From a virus: a stretch of DNA of 21,650 nt. The first letter of the stretch is position 1. Each line of letters starts with the position of its first letter. The position numbers and the translations under genes are program-made. This document shows positions 2,790-20,340 of this stretch, one piece after another. The notes under the pieces were generated by a model that saw only the letters and a list, made by a program, of their open reading frames with translations, had not been told where the DNA came from and did no database searches. The stretch spans positions 1 through 21,650 of the IMG/VR virus record IMGVR_UViG_3300037504_000179. The stretch is one strand, 5' to 3'.

Positions 2790-3155
2790 TCAGCGTGGAA
2801 CCATATCCGTAAGCGACTGTAGCGCACACTGTCCTCCAGCTACTGCCAGCCAGAATAACACTCCGGTCCAGAACCCCATCGGCAGTATCAGGCACGCTAT
2901 CATCGTGGTAAAGGCTCCGAACCAAACTCCCAGGCAATACGGGCAATTCACTAGCGCTCGCAAGCTGGCCCATACTTGCCCTGCCCGTGCTTTGCCCTTA
3001 CGGTTGTAAGCTGTTAATCCCCTAAGCGTTGCCAGGCAATCTAAGGGTCCATCGTCCAATGCTATCAGTTGCGCCAGCCGGTAGGTGGCAAACGTCGCCA
3101 ACATCCACACTACCACCAGTGCCCGTGCCGGCTCAGTAGTCAATGCCCAACTCAT
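2790..3155 (-). CDS. DUF1360-like small membrane protein
   Basis: This 121-residue protein has three hydrophobic segments at about residues 12-30, 68-92 and 94-110. It carries the sequence CPYCLGVWFG near residue 71, the hallmark of the DUF1360 family. The YRLAQLIALDDGPLDCLATLRG block at the N-terminal side also matches that family: R-L-x-x-L-I-x-x-D, then G-P and a downstream L-R. DUF1360 proteins are found in phages and bacteria, and their function is unknown. The start at 3155 overlaps the end of the upstream fusion gene by 23 bases and has a GAGGG about 11 bases upstream. It is followed by the membrane-anchored coiled-coil gene, making a pair of membrane proteins that could act in lysis or in changing the envelope during infection. 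Confidence 0.75.
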   Translation of the reverse strand: MSWALTTEPARALVVVWMLATFATYRLAQLIALDDGPLDCLATLRGLTAYNRKGKARAGQVWASLRALVNCPYCLGVWFGAFTTMIACLILPMGFWTGVLFWLAVAGGQCALQSLTDMVPR

Positions 3156-3639
3156 CCAGGTAGGCCCTCACGTCAGCTATGCCGATCTTGTCACCGTCGT
3201 AGGACACGTCCCGTAGGTCCACCCCGGTTTCCTCTGCCAGGTTCGCTGCGTAGCGGGTAGCCTCCGGTACCGGCGCCTCTTCCACCGGCAAGGTTGTGAC
3301 CTCCGGTTCAGCAGGCGCCTCTTCTTCCGGCTCCGGTGCCGACTCCGGTTCAGGTGCCGGCCCGGGAAGGTTGAAGCGCAAGAAGAGGCCCGTGTTCTCC
3401 ATAAACTCCCGGTCCTCTACCCGCACCCAAATGCGCAGGTTGCGCTGGTTGCGCCCGTACTTGTAGCGCTGGCCGGAAGGGCCGAAGATCGTTTGGTTAC
3501 CGATGCTGTTGCCGGTATACTCCATCGCCAACCAATCGCCCTCCGGTTGGGTGTCCAGCGACATAGCAGGCCCGGACGTGGTTTGGATGCTTACCGTGCG
3601 GGTGCTGCTGCTCCTGCGCTTGCCTCCACAACATGCCAT
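3133..3639 (-). CDS. Nested in-frame gene: capsid-adjacent structural protein
   Basis: Inside the glycosyltransferase fusion an ATG at 3639 begins a 168-residue product in the same frame. It is preceded by a perfect AAGGAG at the ideal spacing of 8 bases. The product begins MACCGGKRR, the typical start of a small Cys-rich protein found after the capsid gene in many tailed phages, with a C-terminal E3-binding-like domain. I infer that this was or is a separate gene and that the upstream glycosyltransferase frame runs into it. Both a long fusion and a short free form may be made. Sequence alone cannot show which form predominates. Confidence 0.6.
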   Translation of the reverse strand: MACCGGKRRSSSTRTVSIQTTSGPAMSLDTQPEGDWLAMEYTGNSIGNQTIFGPSGQRYKYGRNQRNLRIWVRVEDREFMENTGLFLRFNLPGPAPEPESAPEPEEEAPAEPEVTTLPVEEAPVPEATRYAANLAEETGVDLRDVSYDGDKIGIADVRAYLDELGIDY

Positions 3640-4932
3640 AGGTCTAGCTCCTTGCTCGTAAATGTCCCGGTGCATCCGGATGATCTTTTCCTTGAAGTAG
3701 CTCCGTGGCCGTGGCGTGTGCTCCGTTCTGCCTTGCCCCTGGCGCCGGTACATATAGAGCCCTTCTTTGAGATGAACCCCGCACCACCCGTGCAGCCCGA
3801 GCTTGATGTTGAACTCCCAATCCTCCCTACCGTTGTCCATCCTGGGAGCATAGCCACCTACCTGCAGCCAGGCTTTCTTGGGATAGAGGATGCCTTTGTG
3901 CATGCCGTTCCGGTTCAGGAGCACCTCGAAGTCGTAATCCGGCATGCGCCGGATGCGCTCCTGCCCCTGGTTGCCCACAAACCGCACATCGTCGTAGATG
4001 ACACTGTGCGGGTGTCGCAGTGCTAAGGCGTGCATCTTCTCTAGTCGGGTAGGCGCCATCCAGTCGTCACCGTCCAGCACCGTGACGTAGCGCCCTTTGG
4101 CCGGCTCGATGCCCGTGTTGGCTGCGACACTGGCGCCCTGGTTTTCCTGCCGGATATACCGGATGCCCTTCCACCGATCTTCCAGCCGGCGTCCCACCTG
4201 AGCAGTGTTATCAGTGCTCCCATCGTCCACAATGATGATCTCCGTGGCCTGGAAGGTTTGGTCCAGCACGGACCTGACCGCTTGCTCCAGGTAGCGCCCG
4301 AAGTTGTAGGTGGTGATGATGACGCTGATCTCCGGAGGCGTCTTGATGAAGAGCCTGCGCTGCTCCGGGTGCTCATTCAGCGTGCGCTGGATAGCGCTGC
4401 CGAAGGCTTTGCCACCCCTGGCATGCTCGAAGTAAGGGTCCACATCCACCGGAAGCGCTTGGAACCCTTGCCGGCATGCCCTCAGTTGGTACTCGCACGT
4501 ACCGCCCCACAGTGGGTAGAGGTCCTTGTTGAACCCACCTACCCGGTCCAGGACGTCGCGCCGGATGAACATAAAGGTGCCCTGCACGTAGCCGTTAGGC
4601 CAAGCCGGATGCCCCATTACCCCATCCCCTATGATGCCGTAGCGGTCTCGGTCCAGCAGCGCACGCTGCCACCCGTTGCGTAAGGCTCCATCCTGGTTGA
4701 GGATGAGCACATCCGTGGCGCACGCTGCGAACCCTGCGTTGCACCCGCCGGCAAAGTATCCTCGATTGTTAAGGTTCACCACCCGAGCGTTAGACCACCG
4801 CCCCACGTCAGGCGCCTCACTACCGTAATCGTTTACGACTATAACCGGAATATCGGAAGGGATAGAGCGTAGCAGGTTGGGCAGTCCGGCGTGCCCATTC
4901 CAGAAGGGGACGATGATCGTCAAGTTGTCCAT
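3133..4932 (-). CDS. Tandem GT2 glycosyltransferase fused to capsid-adjacent structural protein
   Basis: This 599-residue protein has three parts. Residues 1-195 are a divergent GT2 domain, with TIIVPFWNG, VIVVNDYG and LNQDG. Residues about 203-430 are a canonical GT2 domain, with SVIITTYNFGRYLEQAV, IIIVDDGSTDNT and the metal-binding VLDGDDW. Residues 432-599 form a different protein, which starts MACCGGKRR. It has a short EYTG / FGPSG / YKYG segment, an acidic Pro-Glu linker, and a C-terminal helix pair resembling an E3-binding or peripheral-subunit-binding domain (ATRYAANLAEETGVDL, ending IGIADVRAYLDEL). Small proteins like this third part are common next to phage major capsid genes. The ATG at 4932 has GGAG close upstream. 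The acceptor is unknown. In-frame fusion suggests tethering of the enzyme to the virion or a gene merger; the nested start at 3639 is listed separately. Confidence 0.85.
   Translation of the reverse strand: MDNLTIIVPFWNGHAGLPNLLRSIPSDIPVIVVNDYGSEAPDVGRWSNARVVNLNNRGYFAGGCNAGFAACATDVLILNQDGALRNGWQRALLDRDRYGIIGDGVMGHPAWPNGYVQGTFMFIRRDVLDRVGGFNKDLYPLWGGTCEYQLRACRQGFQALPVDVDPYFEHARGGKAFGSAIQRTLNEHPEQRRLFIKTPPEISVIITTYNFGRYLEQAVRSVLDQTFQATEIIIVDDGSTDNTAQVGRRLEDRWKGIRYIRQENQGASVAANTGIEPAKGRYVTVLDGDDWMAPTRLEKMHALALRHPHSVIYDDVRFVGNQGQERIRRMPDYDFEVLLNRNGMHKGILYPKKAWLQVGGYAPRMDNGREDWEFNIKLGLHGWCGVHLKEGLYMYRRQGQGRTEHTPRPRSYFKEKIIRMHRDIYEQGARPMACCGGKRRSSSTRTVSIQTTSGPAMSLDTQPEGDWLAMEYTGNSIGNQTIFGPSGQRYKYGRNQRNLRIWVRVEDREFMENTGLFLRFNLPGPAPEPESAPEPEEEAPAEPEVTTLPVEEAPVPEATRYAANLAEETGVDLRDVSYDGDKIGIADVRAYLDELGIDY
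3648..3653 (-). promoter_or_regulatory. Internal Shine-Dalgarno for the nested structural gene
   Basis: The minus strand reads AAGGAG 8 bases before the ATG at 3639, inside the glycosyltransferase frame. It encodes part of the E-Q-G-A stretch at the junction and is as good as the ribosome sites of stand-alone genes here. It is the main reason for proposing a second product. Confidence 0.6.
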
Positions 4933-4953
4933 AGGTCTCCGAGCAGGCTACTC

Positions 4954-5012: not shown

Positions 5013-6347
5013 TTACGAACACTCAGCAGCGTCGAAGCTGGTCTCCGGGTAGAAGCTGGTCTCGTCGGTGTCAGGGCTCAGCGGGTCTACCGCACTGTTG
5101 CAGCGCACGTTCTGGAATCGAATCTGCATCCAGGGTGCCAGGCAGAACAGACGTGGGTGATGCCACAGTTTGAGCTTGTAGCACTCGTTATCCGTGTCGT
5201 ACTTGCCGAGCATGCGCCCACCGTCCAGGGAGAAGTAGTCACCCGGATTGACGTTGCCCGGAAGCACATCCCGGAAGGTGCTGAGCGACTCGTCTGCGCT
5301 CAGGAACTCACCCTCCCAAATCCGGCGCCCACCAATCTGCCCCGTCAGGAAGTACATATCGAACCGAGTAGGCCCGTTAATGAGTTCCCAATCGTAGGCC
5401 AGAAGCGGAATCGTGATACCGTCCAAGGTGATGTAGCCGTGACCGAAGAGGTTGGCCGGGTTCTGAGCGCTGATCAGGTTGTCCCGGAACTGCCGAGCCT
5501 CGTAGGTCTGCAGGTTGACTTCGTTGTACTGTTGCCCGGCGCAAACCGACCAGCAGGTGTAGAAGTCCAGCAAGCAGTCCCGAGCGAACGTCGGGAGCAC
5601 CAGGATCATATCGCCCAAAGCCACCGGCGAACCGCTGAACTGTGCGTTCCACGACTTCCGCTGCATAATGCGCCGGAAAATCGCCTGGAGCACGTCGATG
5701 ATGTCGAACGTGGCACCGATCGCGTTGCCGTTCACGGTAATGCCGGCGCCGCCGCTCATCACGTTGTTGTTCCAGTTCACCACCCAGGAGTTGAGCGCCC
5801 CGCCGTGCGTGGTAGCCACCCACTGCTGCAGACCGTCGAACTGGCCGCCCACAGCCGAGTTACCGACGACAATAAGCTCTCGCATGTCGTCCAGGATTTG
5901 GTCCGTGGTGTGCAGCATGTCCCACTCCTGCTCACTCTCCACCAGGGTCCCATCCAGCCGGTAGCGTGGCTGCGTCTTGCAGTAGCGCTTGGGCACCATG
6001 ATCTCGCGGGTAGGCCCGGCACGGGTGATGCGCCCGAAGTCCTCCACCGTGATCTTCCGGGTGCCGAACTCCCATTCGTTGGGGTCAGCACAAGGGTCGC
6101 TCTGATACCCTGCGGTATCCGTACCCTGGAGCGTCTGCTCTGGCCGGCGATAGGTGATGAACTCCACCGAGCGATAGCACTCGTCAGTCACCTGAAACCC
6201 GAGCCAATCCAGCAGGCCCAGGGTGCCCCTAAACGTCAGGGACAGAATCTCATCAGCGCACTGGTCGAAGTAGTTGCAGCACCCAATGGGTGTCGCCGAG
6301 CTACTGAGCGTCATGCGCCGCATCTGTTGTCGCATATCCTCTGGCAT
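5013..6347 (-). CDS. Major capsid protein (HK97-fold, inferred)
   Basis: This 444-residue protein is encoded directly after the protease/scaffold gene, the canonical place of the major capsid gene in HK97-type phages. Its ribosome site AGGAGG, 8 bases before the ATG at 6347, is among the strongest here. The sequence has an N-terminal helical part, a TTDQILDDMRELIVVGN helix of the kind seen along the capsid spine, a Gly-rich loop near residues 196-212, and a MILVLPTFARDCLLDF segment resembling an A-domain strand-helix. I assign the fold mainly from position, size and overall pattern. It is unusually Cys-rich, with 13 cysteines at 23, 24, 30, 57, 86, 123, 258, 265, 269, 389, 402, 416 and 443. 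A strong hairpin lies immediately downstream. Confidence 0.8.
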   Translation of the reverse strand: MPEDMRQQMRRMTLSSSATPIGCCNYFDQCADEILSLTFRGTLGLLDWLGFQVTDECYRSVEFITYRRPEQTLQGTDTAGYQSDPCADPNEWEFGTRKITVEDFGRITRAGPTREIMVPKRYCKTQPRYRLDGTLVESEQEWDMLHTTDQILDDMRELIVVGNSAVGGQFDGLQQWVATTHGGALNSWVVNWNNNVMSGGAGITVNGNAIGATFDIIDVLQAIFRRIMQRKSWNAQFSGSPVALGDMILVLPTFARDCLLDFYTCWSVCAGQQYNEVNLQTYEARQFRDNLISAQNPANLFGHGYITLDGITIPLLAYDWELINGPTRFDMYFLTGQIGGRRIWEGEFLSADESLSTFRDVLPGNVNPGDYFSLDGGRMLGKYDTDNECYKLKLWHHPRLFCLAPWMQIRFQNVRCNSAVDPLSPDTDETSFYPETSFDAAECS

Positions 6348-6388: not shown

Positions 6389-6400
6389 GCCGGCGCCGGC
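6389..6400. repeat. 12-bp perfect GC palindrome
   Basis: The self-complementary sequence gccggcgccggc overlaps the last base of the protease stop codon and lies in the 52-base gap before the capsid gene. No T-run follows. Related GCCGGC words are frequent throughout the window, so this may simply reflect base composition. Confidence 0.5.
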
Positions 6401-6942
6401 TAACCAGCCGACTGCGCAATCCCCTTGGCTGCCAGTTGCTCCCGAACCCGAGTGCTGGTGTCCACGTTGGCTTCGTCCCCCTCAACCCGGTGCGTCTCTC
6501 TTGGGCGCACGATGGCACGCACCTGTGGTTCAGGCAGGTCTGCCAACCACGCATCGCGCCGCTCCTGCTCCGATTGTTCCAATGCATCCAAGCGCTCCTG
6601 AACCTCCGGAACGAAGGCACCCAGGGTCTCGACCAGCGTATTGAGGACGCCGGCCTGCTCCTGCATCAGCGTGCGCATATCGCGCACCACCCGGACCTCT
6701 GGCGGCACTTGTGCTTCCTCCTGCTCCACGGGCTCTGGCTGCTCACCGTCGCCGGCTTCACGATCCACGTCCTCCGGCGCTTCCGTTTCCTCCGACTGCT
6801 CAGGATCCTCAGCGCTTTCGCTGCGTGCAATCAGGCCCTCACCGGTCACCCGGTCATTGATGTTATCCACCTGGCCGGCCAGGAGCGCAGCCTGCTCCTC
6901 CCCCACCAGTCGCTTCAGTGCTTCCAGAACTTGCGCTTTCAT
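6400..6942 (-). CDS. Nested in-frame scaffold protein
   Basis: An ATG at 6942, residue 383 of the protease frame, is preceded by AAGGAG with a 10-base spacing. It would give a 180-residue protein: a short helix (MKAQVLEALKRL), an acidic Glu/Asp/Pro/Gln-rich stretch, a coiled coil (RTLMQEQAGVLNTLVETL, then QERLDALEQSEQERRD) and a basic tail. That is the profile of a scaffolding protein. In phage lambda the scaffold Nu3 is made from a start nested in the protease gene C, so this arrangement has precedent. I infer an analogous case from the site and the composition. Confidence 0.55.
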   Translation of the reverse strand: MKAQVLEALKRLVGEEQAALLAGQVDNINDRVTGEGLIARSESAEDPEQSEETEAPEDVDREAGDGEQPEPVEQEEAQVPPEVRVVRDMRTLMQEQAGVLNTLVETLGAFVPEVQERLDALEQSEQERRDAWLADLPEPQVRAIVRPRETHRVEGDEANVDTSTRVREQLAAKGIAQSAG

Positions 6943-8088
6943 GTTCTTCTCACTCCTTGTCTGTACGGTCGCTGTGGTGTACCAGGCAGAGGCACTGTCG
7001 TTGGGCAGGATTGCCACCCGTTCGAGCTTGCCTTCCAGCCACACAGGAAAAGTAATACCGTCGCCAACATCCAAAAGCTCAGGTTCAGCCATCGGCTTGT
7101 AGCTGATGGACTGCCCCCACTGGTCGGGCTCTTGCATCAGCGTTTCTGCTGCTGCCCTCCCGATCTCGTCGTCCCTGAATAGCCAGCTATCCACCAGCGC
7201 AAAGCCGTCCCAGGCCAGGTAGTCGATCTCGCCCAGGAAGATGTCCTCGTGGTAGAAGTCCAGTTTGACCGGGTCGCTGGCTCTGTCCTGCTGATTGAAC
7301 CGCTCCACGAAGTCCTCGAAGAGGTCCGTGGAGTCGATCTCCTGGTCCTTGTTCAGAATCGCAGTGCAGGCTATGCCCACACCCCGGTAGCGCCCATCCT
7401 CCTGCCGAAAGATGTTGATGCTGCGGGTCACCGGCACATGCTGCACTTCCACCCGCTGCCACTCCCCTGCGGTCACCTCCCCTTGCGCCAGGGTCAGTTC
7501 TGCCCGGTAGAGCTTGCCTTCTTGGCTGGCAATCGCGTAGAGCCCACCGTCGTCGTCGACGTAAAGGTTGTGGAGCCAATAGTCGATCTCCCACGCCTGC
7601 CAATCGACTTGTTGCCAAATCTGGTTCAGGTTGGTGGCACGCTCTTCGTCCTCCGGAGGCTCCTGCCCTGCGGCTTCATAGATCGCATCCGGCGCCACTT
7701 CGTCCATCTGGTTGTAAGCTGAAATGAGTTCCTCCGCTGCACTCTCCACGGCTTCTGCCCAGTCCTCCGCAGCAACGTCATCGGGACGCTCCACAGCGGA
7801 GATGCCCCTGCCGCCGGCTGCAGCATAGACTGCCTGCCGCACGTAGACATCCGCATCGTCGCCGGGTTCTCGAATCGGGAGCATGCAGTGGCTTTGTACC
7901 CAGTCGTCTGCCTCAATGTTGCCGGCGTCTGCGTTGACGTTGATAAGACAGTCATCGCAGTAGGCTTGGGTGGAGTCCCACCTGGAGGCTGCGCCATCCC
8001 ATTCGTCCACGTCCTTGATCGCACGAAGTTGTACGTAAGGCGTGAACACCTGCTGAATCCTGCGCCAAATCTCGTTTATTGCATTCAC
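6400..8088 (-). CDS. Capsid maturation protease with C-terminal scaffold domain
   Basis: This 562-residue protein starts at GTG 8088 with AGGAGG 5 bases upstream. Residues about 25-100 (DEWDGAASRWD, LPIREPG) form a segment often seen at the front of phage capsid proteases. Residues about 215-345 resemble the HK97-type prohead protease core: KLDFYHEDIFLGEIDY supplies a candidate catalytic His at 280, and WGQSISYKP supplies a candidate Ser at 327 or 329, matching the family's S-x-G/S-Y-x-P block. Residues from about 383 are acidic, low-complexity and then coiled-coil, as in scaffolding proteins. The protein should cleave scaffold and capsid precursor during head assembly. The capsid gene follows at once. 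The protease call rests on motif resemblance; the catalytic residues are my assignment. Confidence 0.75.
   Translation of the reverse strand: MNAINEIWRRIQQVFTPYVQLRAIKDVDEWDGAASRWDSTQAYCDDCLINVNADAGNIEADDWVQSHCMLPIREPGDDADVYVRQAVYAAAGGRGISAVERPDDVAAEDWAEAVESAAEELISAYNQMDEVAPDAIYEAAGQEPPEDEERATNLNQIWQQVDWQAWEIDYWLHNLYVDDDGGLYAIASQEGKLYRAELTLAQGEVTAGEWQRVEVQHVPVTRSINIFRQEDGRYRGVGIACTAILNKDQEIDSTDLFEDFVERFNQQDRASDPVKLDFYHEDIFLGEIDYLAWDGFALVDSWLFRDDEIGRAAAETLMQEPDQWGQSISYKPMAEPELLDVGDGITFPVWLEGKLERVAILPNDSASAWYTTATVQTRSEKNMKAQVLEALKRLVGEEQAALLAGQVDNINDRVTGEGLIARSESAEDPEQSEETEAPEDVDREAGDGEQPEPVEQEEAQVPPEVRVVRDMRTLMQEQAGVLNTLVETLGAFVPEVQERLDALEQSEQERRDAWLADLPEPQVRAIVRPRETHRVEGDEANVDTSTRVREQLAAKGIAQSAG
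6953..6958 (-). promoter_or_regulatory. Internal Shine-Dalgarno for the nested scaffold gene
   Basis: The minus strand reads AAGGAG 10 bases upstream of the ATG at 6942, within the protease coding frame. Its strength supports separate production of the scaffold domain. Confidence 0.5.
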
Positions 8089-8223: not shown

Positions 8224-8445
8224 CTAACGTTCCACTTCCTCCTTGAAATCGTCCCAGGGAATGTAGAAGTCCGGGTCTCCACGCTCTTCCACCTGGCGGC
8301 AGTTGCGCTTGAGCCGAATGTGCACTGTTGGTCCGGTCGGCGTTTCGATCAAACGGAAGAGCACCATGCCCTGGGTGTACTTGCTGCCACCCACACGGAC
8401 AAACCCCGCTTCGTCCTTGCTTATACTATCGAAAGATCGAGCCAT
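8224..8445 (-). CDS. Small hypothetical protein (73 aa)
   Basis: The frame opens at 8463, but the ATG at 8445 is preceded by GGAGGTGG at normal spacing and is preferred. The 73-residue product is mixed in charge and probably a compact beta fold, with segments GFVRVGGSKYTQGMVLF, TVHIRLKRN and PDFYIPWDDF. I recognise no family. It overlaps the end of the sulfotransferase gene by 25 bases and is the last gene before the promoter/terminator gap, so it may be a small head or regulatory protein. No membrane segment or metal motif is visible. Confidence 0.7.
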   Translation of the reverse strand: MARSFDSISKDEAGFVRVGGSKYTQGMVLFRLIETPTGPTVHIRLKRNCRQVEERGDPDFYIPWDDFKEEVER

Positions 8446-9260
8446 CGTTTGTACCACCTCCAACAGTAATCGTGCACGTAGCCAGCCTCACCCAACCCCA
8501 AATCCTCCGCAAACCTACCTCGATGACAGTCGCCCGGCGTGACCAGATCCCATAGCTTCCCCAGGATGTCGCCGGTTGCCTTGCGCTCCCTCAGCCTGGC
8601 GCATAGCTGCCCGAAGGTCGCCGGTGGGTTATCCACCATCCGGTCCAGGCTTACCGTCACGTAGTGCCCTTCCGGCACGGTCATCTTGGCTGCCCAAGCC
8701 TCTTCCATCAGTCGGTTGTACCAGTCCGGGAAGGCCAGAACGTTAGGTGGTCCCCAATGCCGTTTGACCACGGAAGCGCAGACGTCCCTGGGGTCCCGGA
8801 TGACGTGGATGAATTTGGCTGTAGGAAAGATCGTGCTCAGGTAGCCGGCCCACAGAATCGCGTGAGGCTCCTTGCAGACGATCTCATCCGTGCCGGTCCA
8901 GGCGTGGATGCGCCCCAACAGTTCATAGGTGAAGAGGCGCCCGAACTCGTCGCGCCGGTGACTGCTGGCTGCGCCGGCTACCTCCGCAACCTCCCGGACC
9001 ACCTCCGGTGTATAGACGCTGCCGGCATTCGGGAGCACATCAAAGCGCTCCAGCATCTTCACCATCCTGGGAAGGAAGCGCTCTATCACGTGGTCCACGA
9101 ACTGCGCCCGGTCCACATTCTGGTTCACAACGTAATCCATTAGGCCGCCCGGCCCAATCAGGAACCTGGGCTCGATGAACACCGCGAAGCGCCGGTCCTG
9201 CTGGAACATTTGCGCCAGTACCGTCGTGCCGCTTCTGCCCGTACCACCTATAATGATCAT
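8421..9260 (-). CDS. Sulfotransferase
   Basis: This 279-residue protein should transfer sulfate from PAPS to a hydroxyl, probably on a sugar. The N-terminus MIIIGGTGRSGTTVLAQMF carries the 5'-phosphosulfate loop (residues 5-14). FIHVIRDPRDVCASVV in the middle carries the Arg and Ser of the 3'-phosphate site. Length fits bacterial sulfotransferases. The frame is open to 9455, but the ATG at 9260 starts exactly at the P-loop strand and has AGGAGAG upstream. It overlaps the stop of the preceding gene by one base (TGATG), so the two are probably translationally coupled. Two adjacent sulfotransferase-fold genes after a GT2 gene suggest stepwise modification of one glycan. The acceptor is unknown, and PAPS would come from the host. 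Confidence 0.85.
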   Translation of the reverse strand: MIIIGGTGRSGTTVLAQMFQQDRRFAVFIEPRFLIGPGGLMDYVVNQNVDRAQFVDHVIERFLPRMVKMLERFDVLPNAGSVYTPEVVREVAEVAGAASSHRRDEFGRLFTYELLGRIHAWTGTDEIVCKEPHAILWAGYLSTIFPTAKFIHVIRDPRDVCASVVKRHWGPPNVLAFPDWYNRLMEEAWAAKMTVPEGHYVTVSLDRMVDNPPATFGQLCARLRERKATGDILGKLWDLVTPGDCHRGRFAEDLGLGEAGYVHDYCWRWYKRWLDLSIV

Positions 9261-9907
9261 CAATCTCTCCTGTGAACTTGGTCCATCATCACGTCGATCT
9301 GGTCCTCCAACCCCGCAAACGCTGCCAGCCGGCCAGCCTCCGCTGCCAGGTCGCCTTTGGTCAGTTCCCGGAAGTCCACCCGCACGTAAGGTGCCCTGGT
9401 GGACCGCAGGAAGCGCTCTGCGCGGCCATAGTAGGCGTGGTAGAGCGTTGCCCAATCGACAGGGTTGCCCCTGTTTCGACGCAACAAAGACTCGACGACG
9501 CCGGTCTCATCTCTGTGCGTTAGCACGTACCTGGGTGTGAAGTCCAGCCGGCGCAGGCACGCATGCCAGGCAAACACCGTCAGCGTCGTCCTGGGGTCCT
9601 TCCAGCCCCAGGCTACCAGCCCATCCGCACGCTTCTGCACCAGGTTCACCATATCCGAGTTCAGTTCCTCCGCAGCGAATCGGATCGCTTTGATGGAGGA
9701 GGGGTTGTGCCAGTTGCCCCGAGCGCCGGCCAGAATCGCCCGGTTGATGACCACGAAGTCGTGGTCCTCATAGTAACCGAAGGGTTGCGTCTTGTCGCCT
9801 TTGGAGCAGCGGTAGCGACACATCGGAAGACCGGCCCGATGCAGCATCGAGCTTACCAAACTGGTGCCGCTCCGGTGCATGCCGAGCACCACATAGACCG
9901 TACTCAT
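9260..9907 (-). CDS. Sulfotransferase-family protein
   Basis: This 215-residue protein begins MSTVYVVLGMHRSGTSLVSS, a clear phosphosulfate-binding loop at residues 9-16. YYEDHDFVVINRAIL and WGWKDPRTTLT match the substrate and dimer regions of this family. VLTHRDETGVVESLLRRN supplies the 3'-phosphate site. The start at 9907 overlaps the stop of the GT2 gene as ATGA; a longer frame to 9937 would begin inside that gene without a better ribosome site. It is shorter than its neighbour sulfotransferase and quite different in sequence, so it is not a recent duplicate. Its position directly after a glycosyltransferase suggests it acts on the same glycan. Confidence 0.8.
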   Translation of the reverse strand: MSTVYVVLGMHRSGTSLVSSMLHRAGLPMCRYRCSKGDKTQPFGYYEDHDFVVINRAILAGARGNWHNPSSIKAIRFAAEELNSDMVNLVQKRADGLVAWGWKDPRTTLTVFAWHACLRRLDFTPRYVLTHRDETGVVESLLRRNRGNPVDWATLYHAYYGRAERFLRSTRAPYVRVDFRELTKGDLAAEAGRLAAFAGLEDQIDVMMDQVHRRD

Positions 9908-10524
9908 ACGACAGGCCCTGTCATTGTCCAGTGGCACCCGTGCTTCTCACGTGTCCGGCGCTGCAGGTGCAGCACGTAATCGTCCACCGGGAAACTCTCC
10001 ACCCGCCACCCATCACGTGCTGCGTAGAGTTCATTGCGCAGGCACGGAGCGCCGTGCAGGTCAAAAGGTGGGTAGCTCAAATAGACGTTCCGGTCCCAAA
10101 GCGCTGTGACCGGCCTGACGTAGCGCAGCCCACCTTGTTCGATCTTCTGCCCGTACCGATTCACGTGGACTAGCTTACCGCATGCATACACACGCTGTGG
10201 CCTTAGCCTGTCGATCATAATCTCCACGAATCCACCCCGTTGCACGATGCAGTCGCTGTCCATCGTGAGCACGTAAGGCGTGCCGGCCTTCTTAATGCCT
10301 TCGTGCAGGCCAGGTCCGTGCCCGATATTACGTGACTTGAACAACACCGTGGTCCTTTCGTGGCCCGCTATGGCCTTCAGCGCTTGGGTAGAGGTATCCG
10401 TGGTACTACCACCATCCACGACTATCACCGGAAAATCCGGGTAGAACTCCCGAATGGAGGCGTGGCACTGCCGGATGAGCTTGGGTGTGCGGTAGTGAAC
10501 GATAACGAAGGTTGTCGAAGGCAT
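9904..10524 (-). CDS. GT2 family glycosyltransferase
   Basis: This 206-residue protein is a single GT2 domain. TTFVIVHYRTPKLIRQC forms the first strand and helix, FPVIVVDGGSTTDTS the nucleotide-binding strand, and RNIGHGPGLHEGI plus YVLTMDSDC the region with the metal-binding D-S-D. It ends soon after the acceptor half (FPVDDYVLHLQRR), so it is a compact soluble enzyme without a membrane anchor. The ATG at 10524 follows the stop of the zinc-ribbon gene by one base and has AGGG at short spacing. It overlaps the first sulfotransferase gene by 4 bases. Donor and acceptor are unknown; a UDP-sugar made by the dehydrogenase at 11585-12490 is a possible donor. Confidence 0.85.
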   Translation of the reverse strand: MPSTTFVIVHYRTPKLIRQCHASIREFYPDFPVIVVDGGSTTDTSTQALKAIAGHERTTVLFKSRNIGHGPGLHEGIKKAGTPYVLTMDSDCIVQRGGFVEIMIDRLRPQRVYACGKLVHVNRYGQKIEQGGLRYVRPVTALWDRNVYLSYPPFDLHGAPCLRNELYAARDGWRVESFPVDDYVLHLQRRTREKHGCHWTMTGPVV

Positions 10525-10525
10525 G

Positions 10526-10723
10526 CTACCCTGACTCTTTCCTTGGGAATGTTAGGATCACAGTGATGTGAGGATTAGGCGCCCGACACGCAGGGCACGC
10601 GAACCTTGTACCTTTGTAGGCTGTGCCGCAATACCCGCAAACGACAAACGCCTGTTGTAGGTCGCTTGACCTGCTTTCGTCACCAGCATGCACTTCCAAT
10701 TTTAAGGGTCCCAAATTAACCAT
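10526..10723 (-). CDS. Small zinc-ribbon protein
   Basis: The best start is the ATG at 10723, with AGGAGGG just upstream; the open frame reaches 10759 but without a ribosome site. The 65-residue product has CGYC and CPAC separated by 11 residues, a classical four-cysteine zinc ribbon, after a short N-terminal segment (MVNLGPLKLEVHAG). The C-terminus (PHITVILTF) looks like a final beta strand. Small zinc ribbons occur among phage head and regulatory genes; I cannot tell which role this one has. It lies one base ahead of the GT2 gene. Confidence 0.7.
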   Translation of the reverse strand: MVNLGPLKLEVHAGDESRSSDLQQAFVVCGYCGTAYKGTRFACPACRAPNPHITVILTFPRKESG

Positions 10724-10731
10724 GCTCCCTC

Positions 10732-10941
10732 CTACGCTTCTTCCTGCCACCGCCGCCAAAGCTCGGCACGCAGCGTGTCATTCAACCCCTGATGCCTAGC
10801 ATCGTAGACGTCGTTCCGGCCGATTGACTCTGCTTCCTCGAAGGATATGTCAAATAGCTCTTTGTCAGTTAGTTCAGCCACCCAAGCGTCCAATGGCTCC
10901 TTTTCGCATGGTCCGTTCAAGCAACACGGGCACTCGTTCAT
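10732..10941 (-). CDS. Small Cys-rich hypothetical protein (69 aa)
   Basis: The start is the ATG at 10941, preceded by AGGAGGG; the frame continues upstream to 11121, but that part is a shadow of the MuF-like gene. The 69-residue product opens MNECPCCLNGPC, four cysteines within 12 residues, then becomes an acidic helical protein ending LRAELWRRWQEEA. I recognise no family. The Cys cluster could bind a metal. It begins 8 bases after the MuF-like stop and ends 8 bases before the start of the zinc-ribbon gene. Confidence 0.65.
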   Translation of the reverse strand: MNECPCCLNGPCEKEPLDAWVAELTDKELFDISFEEAESIGRNDVYDARHQGLNDTLRAELWRRWQEEA

Positions 10942-10949
10942 GTTCCCTC

Positions 10950-11582
10950 CTACCTGTACTCGATGTGGCACTGGCAACTGGTCAGGCAAATCGTGTCGCC
11001 CATGCCGGGCAGCGTTTCCTCTCCCGTGGAGGGAGAGATAAACGGCTCTTCTACGGGTTTCCAGCCCTCTTCTGCCAACGATATACAATCCTCGCAATGT
11101 TCGGCGTTTGCCAAAACCCACCTGTGTTCGGTGTAACCCCGTTCCTCTACCGTGCGTTGCAGCCCACGCTCATACGCTTCCCGGCTGGAGTTGATGTACA
11201 TACGTGCCCGGTTGTAGATTTGCCCCTGGGAGAGGTCGCCGGCTGCTACCTCCGCAGCGAAGTCCTCCAGGTAGCCGTACTGCTCACCGATCATGCCGCC
11301 CACGCTGCCCCAGTCTTGCGGCGTCATCTGCTCCCGACCACCCCGGCCCACGAAGTACTGAGTGAGGTAGTTATCCTTGATCTCCTGGCGCAGAGCGCTC
11401 TGCCAATCCCCAGGAGAGATCGCCTGGTCTGCCACCATCTCCGAGAGCGTTAGCTGCACGTCGTTGGAGGCAGCTACCATCTGGTCCACCTGCTCCCGAA
11501 CCGCAGCGTGAGACGCTATGCGCCCGGTATCAGTGTCCCGGTAGCCGGAACCCCTTAGCCTTGGGTCATAGACGTAAGGCAT
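10950..11582 (-). CDS. MuF-like minor head protein
   Basis: This 210-residue protein resembles the C-terminal half of Mu gpF-like minor head proteins. It has a helical N-terminal two-thirds, then HRWVLANAEHCEDCISLAEEG, LPGMGDTICLTSCQCHIEY at the very end: paired Cys motifs (163, 166 and 199, 203, 205) and a His (162 or 206) typical of that family. Such proteins sit near the portal and are packaged inside the head. A TTG start at 11588 is possible, but the ATG at 11582 has GGGAGG at 7 bases and is preferred. It is separated from the portal gene by three other genes, whereas it usually follows the portal directly. The intruding genes include a UDP-sugar dehydrogenase. Confidence 0.75.
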   Translation of the reverse strand: MPYVYDPRLRGSGYRDTDTGRIASHAAVREQVDQMVAASNDVQLTLSEMVADQAISPGDWQSALRQEIKDNYLTQYFVGRGGREQMTPQDWGSVGGMIGEQYGYLEDFAAEVAAGDLSQGQIYNRARMYINSSREAYERGLQRTVEERGYTEHRWVLANAEHCEDCISLAEEGWKPVEEPFISPSTGEETLPGMGDTICLTSCQCHIEYR

Positions 11583-11584
11583 AC

Positions 11585-12490
11585 TCAATCCTCCCTGTGG
11601 AGATCGCGCCAGTGCCGGGTCTGCTCACCACGCAAGCAGCGCATCTTTTCGTTTACACTGATAAGCGCATCGACCGTAGGTGTGCCGGCGCCCAGGTGGT
11701 TGGCAAAGGTCCGGAAGGCCCTGGTGTCCTTGGGCAGGCATGCTCCACCCCATGCCTTGCCGAATACCCGGTAGACGCTCTCCAGCCCCGGCTCCAGCGC
11801 TGTCAGCCTGGCAATCCGGTCCATGTCGAGCGCTTGACCGTTGACCTTGGCGAACTGCTCAGCCACCAGGTCGAGCTCGTTCCAGAAGGAAATGAGCAAG
11901 GCGTGGAAGAGGTTGTTAGTGTACTTGACGAACTCAGCCTCTTCATACCCTGCGAAGTGCAGCCGGCTGCCCACCCACCCGTAGAGGCTCTTGGCTACAC
12001 TGACGTGCTTAGCGCTTCCAATGCCGACGACCACCTTGGCCGGCGCCACCGCATCGCGTATCGGCGTGCCCGAGTTGAGAAACTCCGGACACACCAGGTA
12101 GTGGTAGCTCTCCGGCAGGATGCTGTGCTCCTGCTTTAGTCGGGAGATCATCAGTCGCGCTGTGCCAGGTGGGCACGTGGACTTCTGCACCAGCGCTTTC
12201 TCCTGTCGGCACCCCGTGGCGTGGTACTCCGCAGCGAACATATCCACCACGCCCTCGACGATACCCAGGTCACACGCACCGTAAGCGCTGGATGCAGTGG
12301 GCACGCAGATCATCAGCACCTCGCCGTAGCTGTACGCAAAGTGCCAGTCCGTAGTGCGCTCCGCAAACTTGGGCAGGTCCTCGAACACTGCCTTGTCCAC
12401 ATCGTAGAAGAGTACATTGTGCCCGTTCACAGCCAGCGCCAACCCCGATGCCCTGCCTACGACCCCTGAGCCTACGATGGTGACGTTCAC
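11585..12490 (-). CDS. Short UDP-glucose/GDP-mannose dehydrogenase family protein
   Basis: This family oxidises a nucleotide sugar twice to the uronate using NAD. The 301-residue product starts at GTG 12490 (GTGA overlap with the upstream stop, GGAG 8 bases before). MNVTIVGSGVVGRASG is the NAD-binding Rossmann motif; KSTCPPGT, VCPEFLNSGT, EFVKYTNNLFHAL and GGACLPKDTRAF (catalytic Cys 251) are all intact. It ends about 50 residues after the catalytic Cys, so the C-terminal domain that helps bind the UDP-sugar in the usual 390-450 residue enzymes is missing. No remnant of it is visible downstream. It may supply UDP-glucuronate to the phage glycosyltransferases, or act on another substrate. The N-terminal extension open to 12604 is not used. 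Confidence 0.85.
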   Translation of the reverse strand: MNVTIVGSGVVGRASGLALAVNGHNVLFYDVDKAVFEDLPKFAERTTDWHFAYSYGEVLMICVPTASSAYGACDLGIVEGVVDMFAAEYHATGCRQEKALVQKSTCPPGTARLMISRLKQEHSILPESYHYLVCPEFLNSGTPIRDAVAPAKVVVGIGSAKHVSVAKSLYGWVGSRLHFAGYEEAEFVKYTNNLFHALLISFWNELDLVAEQFAKVNGQALDMDRIARLTALEPGLESVYRVFGKAWGGACLPKDTRAFRTFANHLGAGTPTVDALISVNEKMRCLRGEQTRHWRDLHRED

Positions 12491-12816
12491 GCTGCCTGCT
12501 CCACAGGCATAAACTCGAACCGGCTCGAGAGGTCCTGCGGTCCGGCCACTTTGACCACGTGCTGCACCTGCGCCGCTGCGTTGAACGCAGCCGTGGAGTA
12601 CCACCCGTAGTCGATCACTTCCTGGCTGGCAGCGTCACTGTGCTGTACCAGCACCTGGCCGGTCACGTCCTGCACCCATGTCAAGCGCAGCCAGGGCAAA
12701 GGCCACCAGATCAACCAGAGTACCCAGGGAGGAAGCTGGTCCTGCGCCCACAGCAAACGTTTTACGAAGTGAAGGTCAAATACCCTGCATACTTTGGACC
12801 GTTCCTGCTCGATCAC
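12487..12816 (-). CDS. Trp-rich hypothetical protein (109 aa)
   Basis: The GTG at 12816 overlaps the upstream stop (GTGA) and has GGAGAAG 8 bases before. The 109-residue product has a striking aromatic patch near residues 25-47, LPPWVLWLIWWPLPWLRLTW, with seven tryptophans in about 25 residues. Polar, Gln/His/Ala-rich segments follow. The patch is Pro-broken and may be a membrane-interfacial or core segment rather than a standard membrane helix. I recognise no family. It sits between a small Cys/His protein and the UDP-sugar dehydrogenase within the portal region. Confidence 0.65.
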   Translation of the reverse strand: MIEQERSKVCRVFDLHFVKRLLWAQDQLPPWVLWLIWWPLPWLRLTWVQDVTGQVLVQHSDAASQEVIDYGWYSTAAFNAAAQVQHVVKVAGPQDLSSRFEFMPVEQAA

Positions 12817-13199
12817 GCTTCTTCTCCATTCTCAAAGTTGATAGGCCCTTCCAGCTCCGGCCTACGCACCCATAAACCAGCAGCGTCGGGTCTGTGCCAC
12901 ACCTGCAAGACTTCTTCGTCCTCGCAGTTCATCGTGTCGCCAACGCATCCGTGGGCTGGTGGATCTCCGTAGTGCAGCCGGCGTGGTCGCTTGATTGACG
13001 CAAACCAAGAGCTATGCGCCTCTACGTCGAACGTCTTGCTGCAACCCTGGCAGCGTATCCGGAAGAGCACTACCTGATTAGAGTAAATGTTCGGGCAACG
13101 CTCAGGCTTGAACTCCCCATATCGCGGCACCCCATTGGCGTCGTACCAAGTTGGCTCTTCGTCTATCCTGTCCTTAATGTCATCGTAGGTTTCATGCAT
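12813..13199 (-). CDS. Small Cys-containing phage protein (128 aa)
   Basis: The frame is open to 13298, but the ATG at 13199 has GGAGG 6 bases upstream and is preferred; it overlaps the portal stop by 8 bases. The 128-residue protein starts MHETYDDIKDRIDEEPTWYD. It has IRCQGCSKTFDVEAH and AHGCVGDTMNCEDEE, which could together make a four-Cys metal site. Proteins of this pattern next to the portal occur in other phages, but their function is unknown to me. It is followed by a 4-base overlap into the next gene. Confidence 0.7.
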   Translation of the reverse strand: MHETYDDIKDRIDEEPTWYDANGVPRYGEFKPERCPNIYSNQVVLFRIRCQGCSKTFDVEAHSSWFASIKRPRRLHYGDPPAHGCVGDTMNCEDEEVLQVWHRPDAAGLWVRRPELEGPINFENGEEA

Positions 13200-14844
13200 T
13201 CTCTTCCTCCGCTTCTGCCGGCGCCGCATCCGGTAAGCCGGCCCACGCTTCGTCGTGCCGGTTGTCCCACTTGGAGAGTGCCCGTTGCACGTCCTCACCC
13301 GTGATGACTACCGTGCCGTCGTCAAAGTACACTTGCTCCGGGTCCACCTCTGCCTGCCGCTGCCGGCCTGGGACGCTATAGAATCGTGCCGGCTCCAGCG
13401 CTTGCTGCCCACTGTCCCACAAGCGCTTGACCTGGATACCTCGACCATACCGCCAGGTCAGGCGCACGATAGGCTCCGCAGGGAAGCGCTCACACGCCCT
13501 CAGCACCTGGTCCTGGCTCAGCAGCCGATCACGCTCCACGCTCTCCACGTCGGTAGCCGTCACGTCCTCTTCTGTCAGAGTCCATTCGTCTGGGATGAAC
13601 CCCTTTTCCGCATACAGGATGCGCCGTTGCTCAGGCGTGAGCGTTTCACCCATGCCCGGACCTGCCGGCGCAGCCATCTCATTGACAGCCTCCGCAAAGG
13701 CCCGGATTGCTTCGTACTCCGACGCCTCACCAAAGGCGTCCCGTTGCTCGAACTCGAAGAGCAGGGTAGGTGGAAGCTCCCGTTGCAGGTTGTCCTGGAA
13801 GGATAGTGCGAAGTCGAGCCCTCCCTTGCCCGTGGCCTTCATCGCCTGCACCTCGGTCTCCCTACCCGTGCCCAAGGTGCCGCCCGACACCGGCCAGAAC
13901 TCCCGTGGATCGTAGCCGAACACCAGCGCATACCCGTACATCAGCATGTTGGTCCATTCGCTCATGTTGAACCCATGTGGAAGCTGACTCAAGGTCACCA
14001 GTTTGGCGTCGATGTCGCCGGCCACCCCGGAGAAGAAGATGCTGAGCCCCGCAAAGAACTCCCGTTCCTTGGCGGTCAAGCGCTCAGCGTTTGCAACCAT
14101 CGCGTCTTCCCAGTCCTGCTCGTCGATGCCGCTCATCAGGAGCAAGCCCTTAGGCATTAGGGCAAACAACATCTCCTTGTCATGCCGGTAGATCGCCACC
14201 ATCAGCACAGCGAACTGCACCGCACGCATCACAGCACAGTAGCCTAGCTGGTGGTAGTCCTCCTGCACCATCGGCAGGCTGGTAGAGCGAATATAGTCCA
14301 GTGGCCCCCACGCCTGCGGCTTACCCTGGGAAGGTGTGTACTCCAAAGGTGCCTGCAGGTCACCGGTCAGCCGGCACCGTGTAGGATCCACGTGGTAGAG
14401 TGCGCCCAAAGGTCCCTGGTCACCGATGCGCCCGATCTCCGACACAGCACCGATGTTGGTGGTCCAGAAGCTCTCGCTCTGCAAGGAAGCATACCGGCGC
14501 CACCCCTGCCCTCCCTCGACGCCTCTGAGCACCCTGGTGAACCGCGCCACCTGATTGCGCCCACCCGTTAAGTTCCACCCTCTGTTCTTGTCAATGTTGA
14601 TGACGCTGGAGACTACTCCGCTCAGCAGCGTTTCCGTGCGCCAGAAGTCGCTGAGCCACTTGTCCAACTCCCTGCTATTGGGCTGATAGGGTGGAATCTG
14701 CTGGATGGTATCCTTCGTCCACGTTTCCAGCATACTCCGCACGGCTGCGACGTATTTGCGGGTGCCCTCCGAGAACCTGGGTTGCCGGCTCTCAGCCTCC
14801 GCACGCTGGATAGGCCCTTGCTCTGCCTGCTCGATCTCTGTCAT
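13192..14844 (-). CDS. Phage portal protein
   Basis: This 550-residue protein is encoded two genes after the large terminase. It has portal-like features: an N-terminal WLSDFWRTETLLSGVVSSVI segment, FWTTNIGAVSEIGR, YHVDPTRCRLTGD, a later LPHGFNMSEWTNMLMYGYALVFGYDPREFWPVSGGTLGTG block resembling the stem/clip region where many portals carry a Gly-rich turn, and an acidic C-terminus. Length fits the family. It would form the dodecameric ring through which DNA enters the head. The ATG at 14844 has GAGAGGTG 7 bases upstream. The assignment rests on size, position and these motifs. The methyltransferase gene between it and the terminase is an unusual insertion. Confidence 0.8.
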   Translation of the reverse strand: MTEIEQAEQGPIQRAEAESRQPRFSEGTRKYVAAVRSMLETWTKDTIQQIPPYQPNSRELDKWLSDFWRTETLLSGVVSSVINIDKNRGWNLTGGRNQVARFTRVLRGVEGGQGWRRYASLQSESFWTTNIGAVSEIGRIGDQGPLGALYHVDPTRCRLTGDLQAPLEYTPSQGKPQAWGPLDYIRSTSLPMVQEDYHQLGYCAVMRAVQFAVLMVAIYRHDKEMLFALMPKGLLLMSGIDEQDWEDAMVANAERLTAKEREFFAGLSIFFSGVAGDIDAKLVTLSQLPHGFNMSEWTNMLMYGYALVFGYDPREFWPVSGGTLGTGRETEVQAMKATGKGGLDFALSFQDNLQRELPPTLLFEFEQRDAFGEASEYEAIRAFAEAVNEMAAPAGPGMGETLTPEQRRILYAEKGFIPDEWTLTEEDVTATDVESVERDRLLSQDQVLRACERFPAEPIVRLTWRYGRGIQVKRLWDSGQQALEPARFYSVPGRQRQAEVDPEQVYFDDGTVVITGEDVQRALSKWDNRHDEAWAGLPDAAPAEAEEENA

Positions 14845-14868: not shown

Positions 14869-15468
14869 TCATAATGGCTTTATCGCTCTTACCCAAGTCT
14901 GCTGCCTGGGATGCACGTAAGGCAGCCTCGCCAAGGGCTCGAACCCGGCTCGTTGCGCCAGGCTATCCAATGTGTCGAACCGATACCGCACCAGGTGGGA
15001 GTAGGGCACTGTGCCTTTGTAGTCCTCGTCACCCTCGAAAAAGGTGAAGAGGAACTGGCCGCCCGGCACCAGCGTCGACGTCAGGCTGTCAAGGCACTGA
15101 GTAATCATCGTCAGCGGCAGGTGGGTGAAGAGGCTCTGCGCTAGAGCGTAATCGAAGTCCACCCCGAAAACACTGGTGTCGCACTGGTCGTTGTGGTCAA
15201 TCTTGGGCACCTTGACCACAAGAATGTCCCAACCAAGCTCGTTCTCGAACCCCGCCTCTACCAACTCCCGGTTGGGCTCGATGCCGTAGTAGTTGTGCTG
15301 GTTGAGGTAGGGGATGAAGAGCCTGCCGCCCCGCAAGGAACCGCACCCAATGTCCAGGAGCTTGTGGGTGTCGCGCAGCCCCGTGTTAACCAGCACGATG
15401 AACTGCTGCGCCCCGATCAGGTCGTAGAGGTCCCTGGGTCCTACATCACGGTAGTGCTGCCGCTTCAT
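14869..15468 (-). CDS. Class I SAM-dependent methyltransferase
   Basis: This 199-residue protein has the SAM-binding motif I HKLLDIGCGSLRGG (residues 36-48), YYGIEPN as the acidic strand-2 end, DFDYALAQSLFTHL as motif IV-like, and a C-terminal LDSLAQRAGFEPLARL strand-helix. It is a compact class I methyltransferase. It lacks an N-P-P-Y or D-P-P-Y motif, so it is unlikely to be an amino-methylating DNA methyltransferase, and no target-recognition domain is present. A small molecule, sugar or protein substrate is more likely. The ATG at 15468 has GGGGAGG upstream and overlaps the end of the terminase gene by 12 codon-out-of-frame bases or so. It lies inside the packaging block, between terminase and portal. 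Confidence 0.8.
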   Translation of the reverse strand: MKRQHYRDVGPRDLYDLIGAQQFIVLVNTGLRDTHKLLDIGCGSLRGGRLFIPYLNQHNYYGIEPNRELVEAGFENELGWDILVVKVPKIDHNDQCDTSVFGVDFDYALAQSLFTHLPLTMITQCLDSLTSTLVPGGQFLFTFFEGDEDYKGTVPYSHLVRYRFDTLDSLAQRAGFEPLARLPYVHPRQQTWVRAIKPL

Positions 15469-15479
15469 TCTTGCCTCCC

Positions 15480-16832
15480 CTATGTGCCCCTGCCGCCACC
15501 GTGGAGTGTGGCTTCGTAGGCCAGTGCGCCGGCCACCACGCTGTCAGGCGGGTGATTGCTCTTGCCGCTTCTGTATAGGTCGTCGCTCTCGCAATACTTG
15601 TGCTCGTCTCGCATCCATTCAATGTCCGGCGCGATGAAGGCCCCATCTTCCATCGCTGCTATGTAGTTAGAGAAAAGGGACCGACGCCTACTCCCCACCA
15701 TCACCACCCCGCCGCTTCTTGACGTCTTGTAGTCCTCAATCACACTGCCCAGGCCCGTGGCGTCGTGGAGTGCCTTGCCCCGAAACCGCTTTACCCGCTT
15801 GTCGAACCTGCCCACCATTCTAGGCCAGGGCTCTCGCTGCCGGCGCTCAAAGGCGACTAGCCGATATGGGTGCACATCGGTCCTCCAGGTCGCGATCACT
15901 GTGTAATCCTGCTTCTTAGCCCAGTCAGCGCCGGTTGCGTAGCGTGCCCCACGCTGCGGTTTCTCGATCTCGATGTACTCACCTATCGCACCCCGGTAAC
16001 TGCCTAGCGCTGCATCGAACGTGGCGTCCACCCATTCGGTGAGAATGGCCCGGCCCTCAGCTACCGGCTCCTGCAGATCGTACTCGACCTCCCACATACG
16101 GTTGGATGTGTCACGCTTCTTCTCTTCGATCTGGCTTTCCAGGAGCCACCCGTCTTCACAGCTAGTTTCGTGGTAGCTCCATTCGTGAATCGGCCAACCT
16201 TTGGACCGGGCCCGTTTCAGAACCTCCGTCATCGTCTTGTCCGGGTAGTGGTGCGTGCTGGAGCAGACCGTTTGGGAAGGAATCACGATGCGCCGGCCCT
16301 CCACCTTTGCCATCGGCTGCCCCATCGCTGCGTCGAATAGGTCCACGCTCATCTCGTCAACCTCGTCGAGCCTCAGCCGTTGCGGGTGAGGCCCTCGCAC
16401 GCTCTTGGAGCTTGCCATCAGCGCCTGAATGGAGTTGCCGTGCGTGAACCGGCTGACCGTCGTTAAGGGTTCTCCATCCCAAAGCCACCGTGGGCAGTGC
16501 TCAGCATTGTAAAGATCGTCCGATATGTAGTCCTGAACGTTCTTGCTTTGGGCGCCCGAGCCCCCCAATATCTTGACATCGGCTTTGAGCGTCAACGCTT
16601 CCGTCAGGCCAAGAATCGCTAGGAGGTAGCTCTTGCCTCCGAACCCACGGCTGGCTTTCCAGACCACCACGCTGTCCCGAGCGAAGTAAGCGTCACAGAA
16701 GGCCCTCCAGGGTGTCGAGTGCTCAGGTACCACCACAGTATCCGGAATGCACGTGCCGAAGGCGACTTCCACGAAGTCGCGTAGGGCACCCTCCGTGCGC
16801 AGCGGTAGTTTCCAAACATACTCTGTAGCCAC
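15480..16832 (-). CDS. terL: Terminase large subunit
   Basis: This 450-residue packaging motor has Walker A KASRGFGGKS (residues 59-68), Walker B LRLDEVDE (153-160), and a C-terminal RNase H-like nuclease with Asp in TGADWAKKQDYTVI (303), LHDATGLG (357) and HPPDSVVAGALA (430). It hydrolyses ATP to drive DNA into the prohead and cuts the concatemer. The start at 16832 is GTG, with GAGG about 11 bases upstream, weaker than elsewhere, and 13 bases separate it from the upstream gene's stop. The fold is complete. The methyltransferase gene begins within a few bases of its end. Confidence 0.93.
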   Translation of the reverse strand: MATEYVWKLPLRTEGALRDFVEVAFGTCIPDTVVVPEHSTPWRAFCDAYFARDSVVVWKASRGFGGKSYLLAILGLTEALTLKADVKILGGSGAQSKNVQDYISDDLYNAEHCPRWLWDGEPLTTVSRFTHGNSIQALMASSKSVRGPHPQRLRLDEVDEMSVDLFDAAMGQPMAKVEGRRIVIPSQTVCSSTHHYPDKTMTEVLKRARSKGWPIHEWSYHETSCEDGWLLESQIEEKKRDTSNRMWEVEYDLQEPVAEGRAILTEWVDATFDAALGSYRGAIGEYIEIEKPQRGARYATGADWAKKQDYTVIATWRTDVHPYRLVAFERRQREPWPRMVGRFDKRVKRFRGKALHDATGLGSVIEDYKTSRSGGVVMVGSRRRSLFSNYIAAMEDGAFIAPDIEWMRDEHKYCESDDLYRSGKSNHPPDSVVAGALAYEATLHGGGRGT

Positions 16833-16845
16833 ACGTCAACATGCC

Positions 16846-17496
16846 TCAGTCATAGACGATGATGCGCAGGGTATCGTCCTGCGGTACCTGGTGCGGATCG
16901 TCGTCGTTGGCGTCTTGCGCCGGTTGACGTTCAGGGATGATAAAATCGCCAAACTCCGTGCGCATCTGCTTGACCAGCATCTCCATCGCCTTCGTCACGT
17001 CAGGGAGCGCTGAAAGCTCTGCCATCGCGTGGCTGACCTCTCCCACCCTCTGCAGGAGCAGGTCGCGCCTATCTTCATCCTCACATCGCTGCGCCTGGTC
17101 CTGCAAGTAGTCCACCAGCCCTGTTAGCCGGTCCATACTTTGAGTGTAGTTCACCAGCGCCGTGGCTATGGTGCCGGTGAACCCATCCATTAACTCGCGC
17201 CGGTCCTGCCTGGCCTGCTGGAGCGCTTCCTTCTCCGCTTCGATCTCCAGGCGCCGGCTCTCTTCTGCTTTGAAGGCGTCCCACGCTTCTGCCCTGGCGT
17301 CCCAGTCCCAGTCCTTGCGCACTTCGTACCATCGGAAGTGTGGGCGCTCCGCTTTGAGCCCTCTTTTTGCTCTATCTCGCTGGAATGCTTCTTCGATTGT
17401 GCGAGAAGGTCCCAGGGACCGCCAGAGGTCAAATCGCTCGAACCAAAGGCCCGGCTCATCCGGCATTCTAGCCCAAGGCTTTCTGTTTTGGTTCAT
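16846..17496 (-). CDS. Small terminase-like protein
   Basis: This 216-residue protein lies directly before the large terminase. Residues about 12-75 (MPDEPGLWFERFDLW, RTIEEAFQRDRAKRG, RWYEVRKDWDWDARAEAWD) match the helix-turn-helix type N-terminal part of small terminases that carry a W-Y-x-x-x-x-x-W-x-W-x-x-R-A-x-A-W-D signature. The middle is a long charged helix and the tail is acidic with VPQDDTLRIIVYD. It should bind the packaging start site and regulate the large subunit. The ATG at 17496 has AGGAAGG upstream. Its stop is 13 bases before the terL start. Confidence 0.75.
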   Translation of the reverse strand: MNQNRKPWARMPDEPGLWFERFDLWRSLGPSRTIEEAFQRDRAKRGLKAERPHFRWYEVRKDWDWDARAEAWDAFKAEESRRLEIEAEKEALQQARQDRRELMDGFTGTIATALVNYTQSMDRLTGLVDYLQDQAQRCEDEDRRDLLLQRVGEVSHAMAELSALPDVTKAMEMLVKQMRTEFGDFIIPERQPAQDANDDDPHQVPQDDTLRIIVYD

Positions 17497-17510
17497 AATG
17501 GATTACCTTC

Positions 17511-18941: not shown

Positions 18942-18943
18942 CG

Positions 18944-20338: not shown

Positions 20339-20340
20339 GC

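Follow-up and report, generated by a model that had tools for sequence, protein, structure and literature searches.

A glycosyltransferase pair fused in frame to a capsid-side module, with a conserved internal start site, in a group of tailed phages

A single reading frame in a virus genome joins two glycosyltransferase (GT) domains to a small capsid-side protein, and comparison of sequences showed that the fusion, a start site inside it and the catalytic motifs of the enzyme are conserved across relatives, with the GTs swapped modularly or lost in some of them. We propose that this one gene would give two products, a free head-side adaptor and a GT-bearing copy that glycosylates the head, a reading to which, taken whole, we give an even chance. 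The DNA analysed, referred to here as the window, is a 21,650-base IMG/VR virus record with a tailed-phage head cluster on the minus strand, on which all window features described below lie. In this cluster, a terminase large subunit (15480-16832; phrog_9, E 1.6e-6) and a 212-aa protein (phrog_24776) have PHROG matches, while the portal-like protein (13192-14844) and the protease/scaffold-like protein (6400-8088) were assigned by gene order and conservation only, and the putative major capsid protein (MCP; 5013..6347) by synteny and conservation. None of the libraries searched names the latter three; for the putative MCP there was no Pfam or PHROG match, its profile likewise found no sequence in PDB, and tblastn against 50,697 phage records gave no match. 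The fused ORF (4932..3133, 599 codons with no interrupting stop) lies immediately after the MCP gene, with GGAG (4937..4940; dG -6.6) 5′ of its start codon at 4932, and is followed by a gene for a small membrane-like DUF1360 protein with a CPYC motif (2790..3155) that overlaps the end of the fusion. The first-pass annotation had described one frame holding two GT2 domains and then, without a stop, a protein beginning MACCGGKRR, which is borne out, on a strand left unstated there that proved to be minus. Its placement of the internal start was likewise correct: the Met of MACCGGKRR is residue 432, encoded by an ATG at 3639, with the Shine-Dalgarno (SD) sequence AAGGAG (3648..3653) at 8-base spacing, and opens a segment of 168 aa (3133..3639), here called the CCG module.

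The enzyme part consists of a first GT2/GT-A domain at residues 1-197 (4342..4932) and a second at residues 199-431 (3640..4338), both recognized by Glycos_transf_2 (PF00535), which matched the window in two stretches with a total E of 4e-40 and 137.8 bits against a curated cut-off of 23.3. Among the 23 members with two GT domains, D35 and N79-Q80-D81 of the first domain are invariant, as are D237, S239, D241, D289-D290, G368-R369 and D371-W372 of the second, where D236 and E370 are conserved in at least 90%. The Pfam match and the DDxSxD, DD and ED-type catalytic motifs together mark this part as a predicted GT2 (GT-A) enzyme. The first domain was modelled with pLDDT mostly above 90, and in structural comparison the second matched many GT-A enzymes at rmsd 2-4 (VIA-align Z 20-26). 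Most of the best-scoring folds belonged to polysaccharide or wall glycosyltransferases, protein GalNAc-transferases ranked lower, and the best match of the pair was the chondroitin polymerase K4CP (2z86; Z 26.4), which, like the tandem GT-A polymerase PmHS2, a heparosan synthase, holds two GT-A domains in one chain. Over both domains, however, the rmsd to K4CP is 15.9, indicating that the GT domains are placed differently, and K4CP and PmHS2 are without the capsid-side module of the window enzyme.

The CCG module is composed of the MACCGG start, a beta domain, a Pro/Glu-rich linker and an E3-binding-like end. Its conserved part, at about module residues 31-100 (3340..3549), is a small beta domain of order b-b-b-b-a-b (AF2 model pLDDT 80-94). 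No family names the module, and a Foldseek search against PDB and BFVD returned nothing below E 0.001. The highest of the weak fold matches obtained, up to Z 4.8, were to GINS small domains, and we treat these as reflecting a common small beta arrangement. The E3-binding-like helical domain that the first-pass annotation had placed at the end (3145..3264) is weak in the window (PF02817; E 0.049, 14.3 bits, below the curated cut-off of 23.7) but clear in the relatives L005 (5.7e-11, 42.9 bits) and L006 (3e-10, 40.6 bits). Other members carry an HhH_5 domain in this place (L021, and more weakly L038, L040 and L044), while in others the end is helical but unnamed, or a basic tail. Ends of this kind often bind nucleic acid or a partner.

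To gather relatives, IMG/VR was scanned using the GT part, the whole fused protein and the MCP as queries, and genome contigs were scanned once; the first eight members supplied the HMMs by which the MCP, GT and module were mapped at each locus. With each distinct sequence counted once, the in-frame fusion is present in 31 virus or MAG sequences, with GT identity falling to ~30%: the window and 30 others (L005-L011, L013, L014, L016, L019, L021, L024, L025, L029, L032, L035, L038, L039/L097, L040, L041, L043-L046, L050-L053 and L103), among which L052 and L053 have more divergent modules. In most loci the module ORF follows the MCP, itself identified by synteny, and inserted genes sometimes lie between them (e.g. 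L006, L009, L043). Contig ends cut the loci of L028, L033, L037 and L047, and the module was undetected in the 19-kb contig L048. Set against these 31 fused sequences, a free-standing module was seen in two viruses, L023 and L049, the latter with two tandem copies after the MCP (L049:3598-4187), the second with a strong SD and the first with a weaker one. The further suggestion that such modules are normally free-standing found thin support, since apart from these two viruses the module was seen alone only in two Chloroflexota chromosomes. There, short free CCG genes (L065:6465-6749 and L066:4593-5105, minus) occur with no visible capsid gene, and the module is thus not confined to these viruses; an ORF of ~730-740 aa, Cys-rich and in L065 also Trp-rich, lies upstream of each. 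Two fused members come from MAG contigs, L013 and L014, with the labels Anaerolineae and Chloroflexota, which suggests that the hosts of this virus group are probably Chloroflexota bacteria. Searches with the module by itself added little: an exact-peptide search with the window module found no relative, tblastn with two members of the module family (window and L008) against the 50,697 phage records returned nothing, alignments of the divergent modules held no stretch conserved enough for scanning, and scanning with a more closely related subset brought up no virus beyond those already collected.

At the junction, all 31 fused members have an ATG with a strong SD (dG at or below -6.9) and a Cys within a few codons, and the start at this Met, which the first-pass annotation had singled out for testing in homologs, is present in the free modules as well. 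Measured as duplex energy to the anti-SD, the SD energy averaged -8.6 over 31 sites, junctions and free starts together, compared to -2.9 for a further 381 Met codons from these ORFs, and reached -5 or lower at 97% of the former and 19% of the latter (Mann-Whitney p 2.5e-18, which is indicative and not a true probability because the members are related). The SD core lies in all three codon phases (14/9/6 in 29 fused members) and the peptides encoded across it differ (QGARP, DRRNE, GGCT, EVRP, SGRFP and GVYPP among them), which puts the selection on the nucleotides and rules out a peptide constraint as the source of the SD conservation. Of 28 members, 21 showed weaker local RNA structure around the junction. 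In the structure model, the junction Met borders a linker modelled with low confidence (residues 436-457, pLDDT <50) and has no evident structural role that would account for its conservation in 31 of 31 members. Comparison across relatives shows a conserved in-frame internal start with its ribosome site, from which translation of both forms is judged likely; the earlier prediction of two products, a free module and an enzyme-bearing copy, gains support from the ATG and SD at every junction. Production of the long fusion only, with an accidental internal SD and ATG, is hard to reconcile with an SD found in all members in three codon phases and with free modules that have the same start, and we consider it very improbable. 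Standard ORF calling would miss the 168-residue product, hidden as it is inside the 599-residue call.

The first-pass annotation had also inferred that a GT gene invaded the capsid locus and lost its stop, and as a recent accident this is unsupported. A stop hidden at the junction by a sequencing error was looked for and none was found; independent relatives showing the fusion exclude such an error, and the 30 of them rule out a lost stop as well. In an MCP tree of 33 rows, two-GT fusions fall on both sides of the root, which is a drawing midpoint, so the order of free and fused states is not given by the tree. The spread of the fusion across this tree speaks against a recent accident. A GT search independent of the MCP gave 27 loci, of which 25 have the module and two are cut by contig ends; these contig-end cases aside, every such GT in the GT-based scan came with the module, and in this virus group the pair was never seen apart from it. 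As judged from these genomes, the fusion is old and maintained, a conserved arrangement and not a one-off.

What varies among the members is the GT part, joined at a constant junction: one domain, two domains, a swapped GT, or a chain of three. The four single-GT members (L040, L041, L044, L045) retain the second, module-proximal domain. The free-module virus L023 pairs in the MCP tree with the fused L035 (95/95), and its 62-kb contig holds no such GT elsewhere; its nesting beside a fused relative suggests that the GT was probably lost there, with the internal start taking over and preserving the module as a gene. In L046, the MCP is sister to that of L009 (100/98) and the modules are 48% identical, yet the fused GT shares no more than 29% identity with any other and has a branch length of ~4 changes per column, and we therefore regard it as a foreign GT swapped in. 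In L051, a GT4-like domain (read from sequence), two GT2 domains and the module are joined in 898 codons. L046 also has a separate ORF of 609 aa (L046:7255-9081), GT4-like plus GT2, between its MCP and its fused GT-module ORF, and this resembles the chain fused in L051. That different enzymes were recruited to a single module, and that the internal start was kept every time, is the strongest argument that the joining itself matters. It bears directly on the idea that translational coupling gave rise to the fusion incidentally: the end of the GT gene would run over the ribosome site of the following gene, with read-through tolerated and the fused protein without function. The SD and ATG do lie within the end of the GT gene, as with overlapping phage genes, but ordinary overlaps would also use other frames or stops, whereas here the frame is the same with no stop in 31 of 31, and both the foreign GT and the GT4-GT2-GT2 chain are again joined in frame. 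So far no relative has turned up in which the GT stops next to the module or finishes in another frame, and we consider coupling improbable.

Given a functional fusion, ribosomes starting at 4932 would make the 599-residue protein, with the tandem GT-A pair, a flexible linker and the capsid-side adaptor, and ribosomes starting at 3639 would make the 168-residue adaptor alone. The adaptor would bind the head or prohead, as do packaging and decoration proteins from this genomic place in other phages. Its position after the capsid gene, its small beta domain and its swappable helical end make such binding the most likely role, and we lean towards it with some confidence. Because the adaptor is common to both forms, a minority of head sites would receive the long form, which would bring the GTs to the head to place sugars on the capsid or other head proteins.

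Parts of this scheme have counterparts in phage lambda. The extra N-terminal part of lambda C is a protease. The C/Nu3 pair (annotated in J02459) has one frame, two products and a common C-terminal structural part within the head gene cluster, as is proposed for the window ORF. Here, in contrast, the extra part consists of glycosyltransferases and the shared part lies after the capsid gene. Lambda gpFI, like the CCG module, combines a small beta domain with a helical domain, in an order reversed relative to the module and with no enzyme attached. Its packaging gene FI lies directly after the capsid gene E (J02459), and gpFI is described in PMC4856287 as sitting on the prohead lattice, with non-specific DNA binding as its proposed action. 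Sequence comparison with the module gave no signal of homology (hhalign probability 0, with a single lambda sequence), and the structural match to the C-terminal domain of gpFI (2lsm) was weak (Z 3.0, 49 aligned, rmsd 3.2) and below several GINS matches. We use gpFI as a useful analogy and claim no membership.

Capsid glycosylation has been reported for a few phages, mycobacteriophages among them (PMC11256854), and for this reason we put head glycosylation first among the hypotheses for the long form. PMC11256854 describes glycans on the major capsid protein of mycobacteriophages Che8 and Rita, with phage-encoded GTs as the candidate enzymes. The likeness to the window would lie in these phage-encoded candidates and in the capsid as glycan carrier. 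In the related phage Maravista, the GT genes are located close to the 3′ genome end (PMC11256854), and unlike the window ORF they are not fused to a head protein. That glycosylation of the head is the purpose of the long form is to us a little short of an even bet. The two products may instead act apart, with the free module a head protein and the long-form GT modifying host envelope glycans (to alter a receptor or exclude superinfection, for example); the module would then do no more than localise or stabilise the enzyme, perhaps together with the DUF1360 membrane protein. The best-scoring GT folds, which act on polysaccharides or wall polymers, and the membrane-like gene after the module in the relatives inspected both favour this account; by itself, however, it leaves unexplained why swapped GTs (L046, L051) stand in frame on the module with the internal start kept, and we consider it unlikely, though the most serious competitor to head glycosylation.

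Docking at the head, if correct, would give the module a wider meaning. To our knowledge, how glycosylating enzymes find a phage capsid is an open question, and an enzyme tied by evolution to a capsid-side protein, whose free form is guarded by an internal start, and this repeatedly with different enzymes, suggests a means of docking them on the assembling virus head. More tentatively, a module that binds the head and keeps its internal start protected may be a docking plug to which different GTs were fused more than once, leaving a set fraction of head positions enzyme-bearing, with the capsid decorated during assembly or the enzyme travelling in the virion. Delivery of an enzyme to the virus head becomes directly testable in this arrangement, of which the literature searched gave no description; coverage was thin for subscription journals, and this is weak evidence of novelty.

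Several neighbouring genes deserve mention. The DUF1360 gene with its CPYC motif follows the module in the relatives inspected, whether the module is fused or free, and its product may work together with the Cys-rich start of the module. Interleaved with the head genes of the window (8421-12604 and 14869-20437) are genes for a nucleotide-sugar dehydrogenase-like protein, two sulfotransferases, another GT2 and a methyltransferase, along with genes for a radical SAM protein and for an asparagine synthase. The first five of these fit an investment in glycans, whose target they do not indicate. Near the end of the head cluster lies a gene for an LRR and PKD-like protein with near-identical internal repeats (656-1633). 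In L006, two more ORFs (L006:6824-8010), by eye sulfotransferase-like and methyltransferase-like, lie between the MCP and the fusion, and the second overlaps the GT start.
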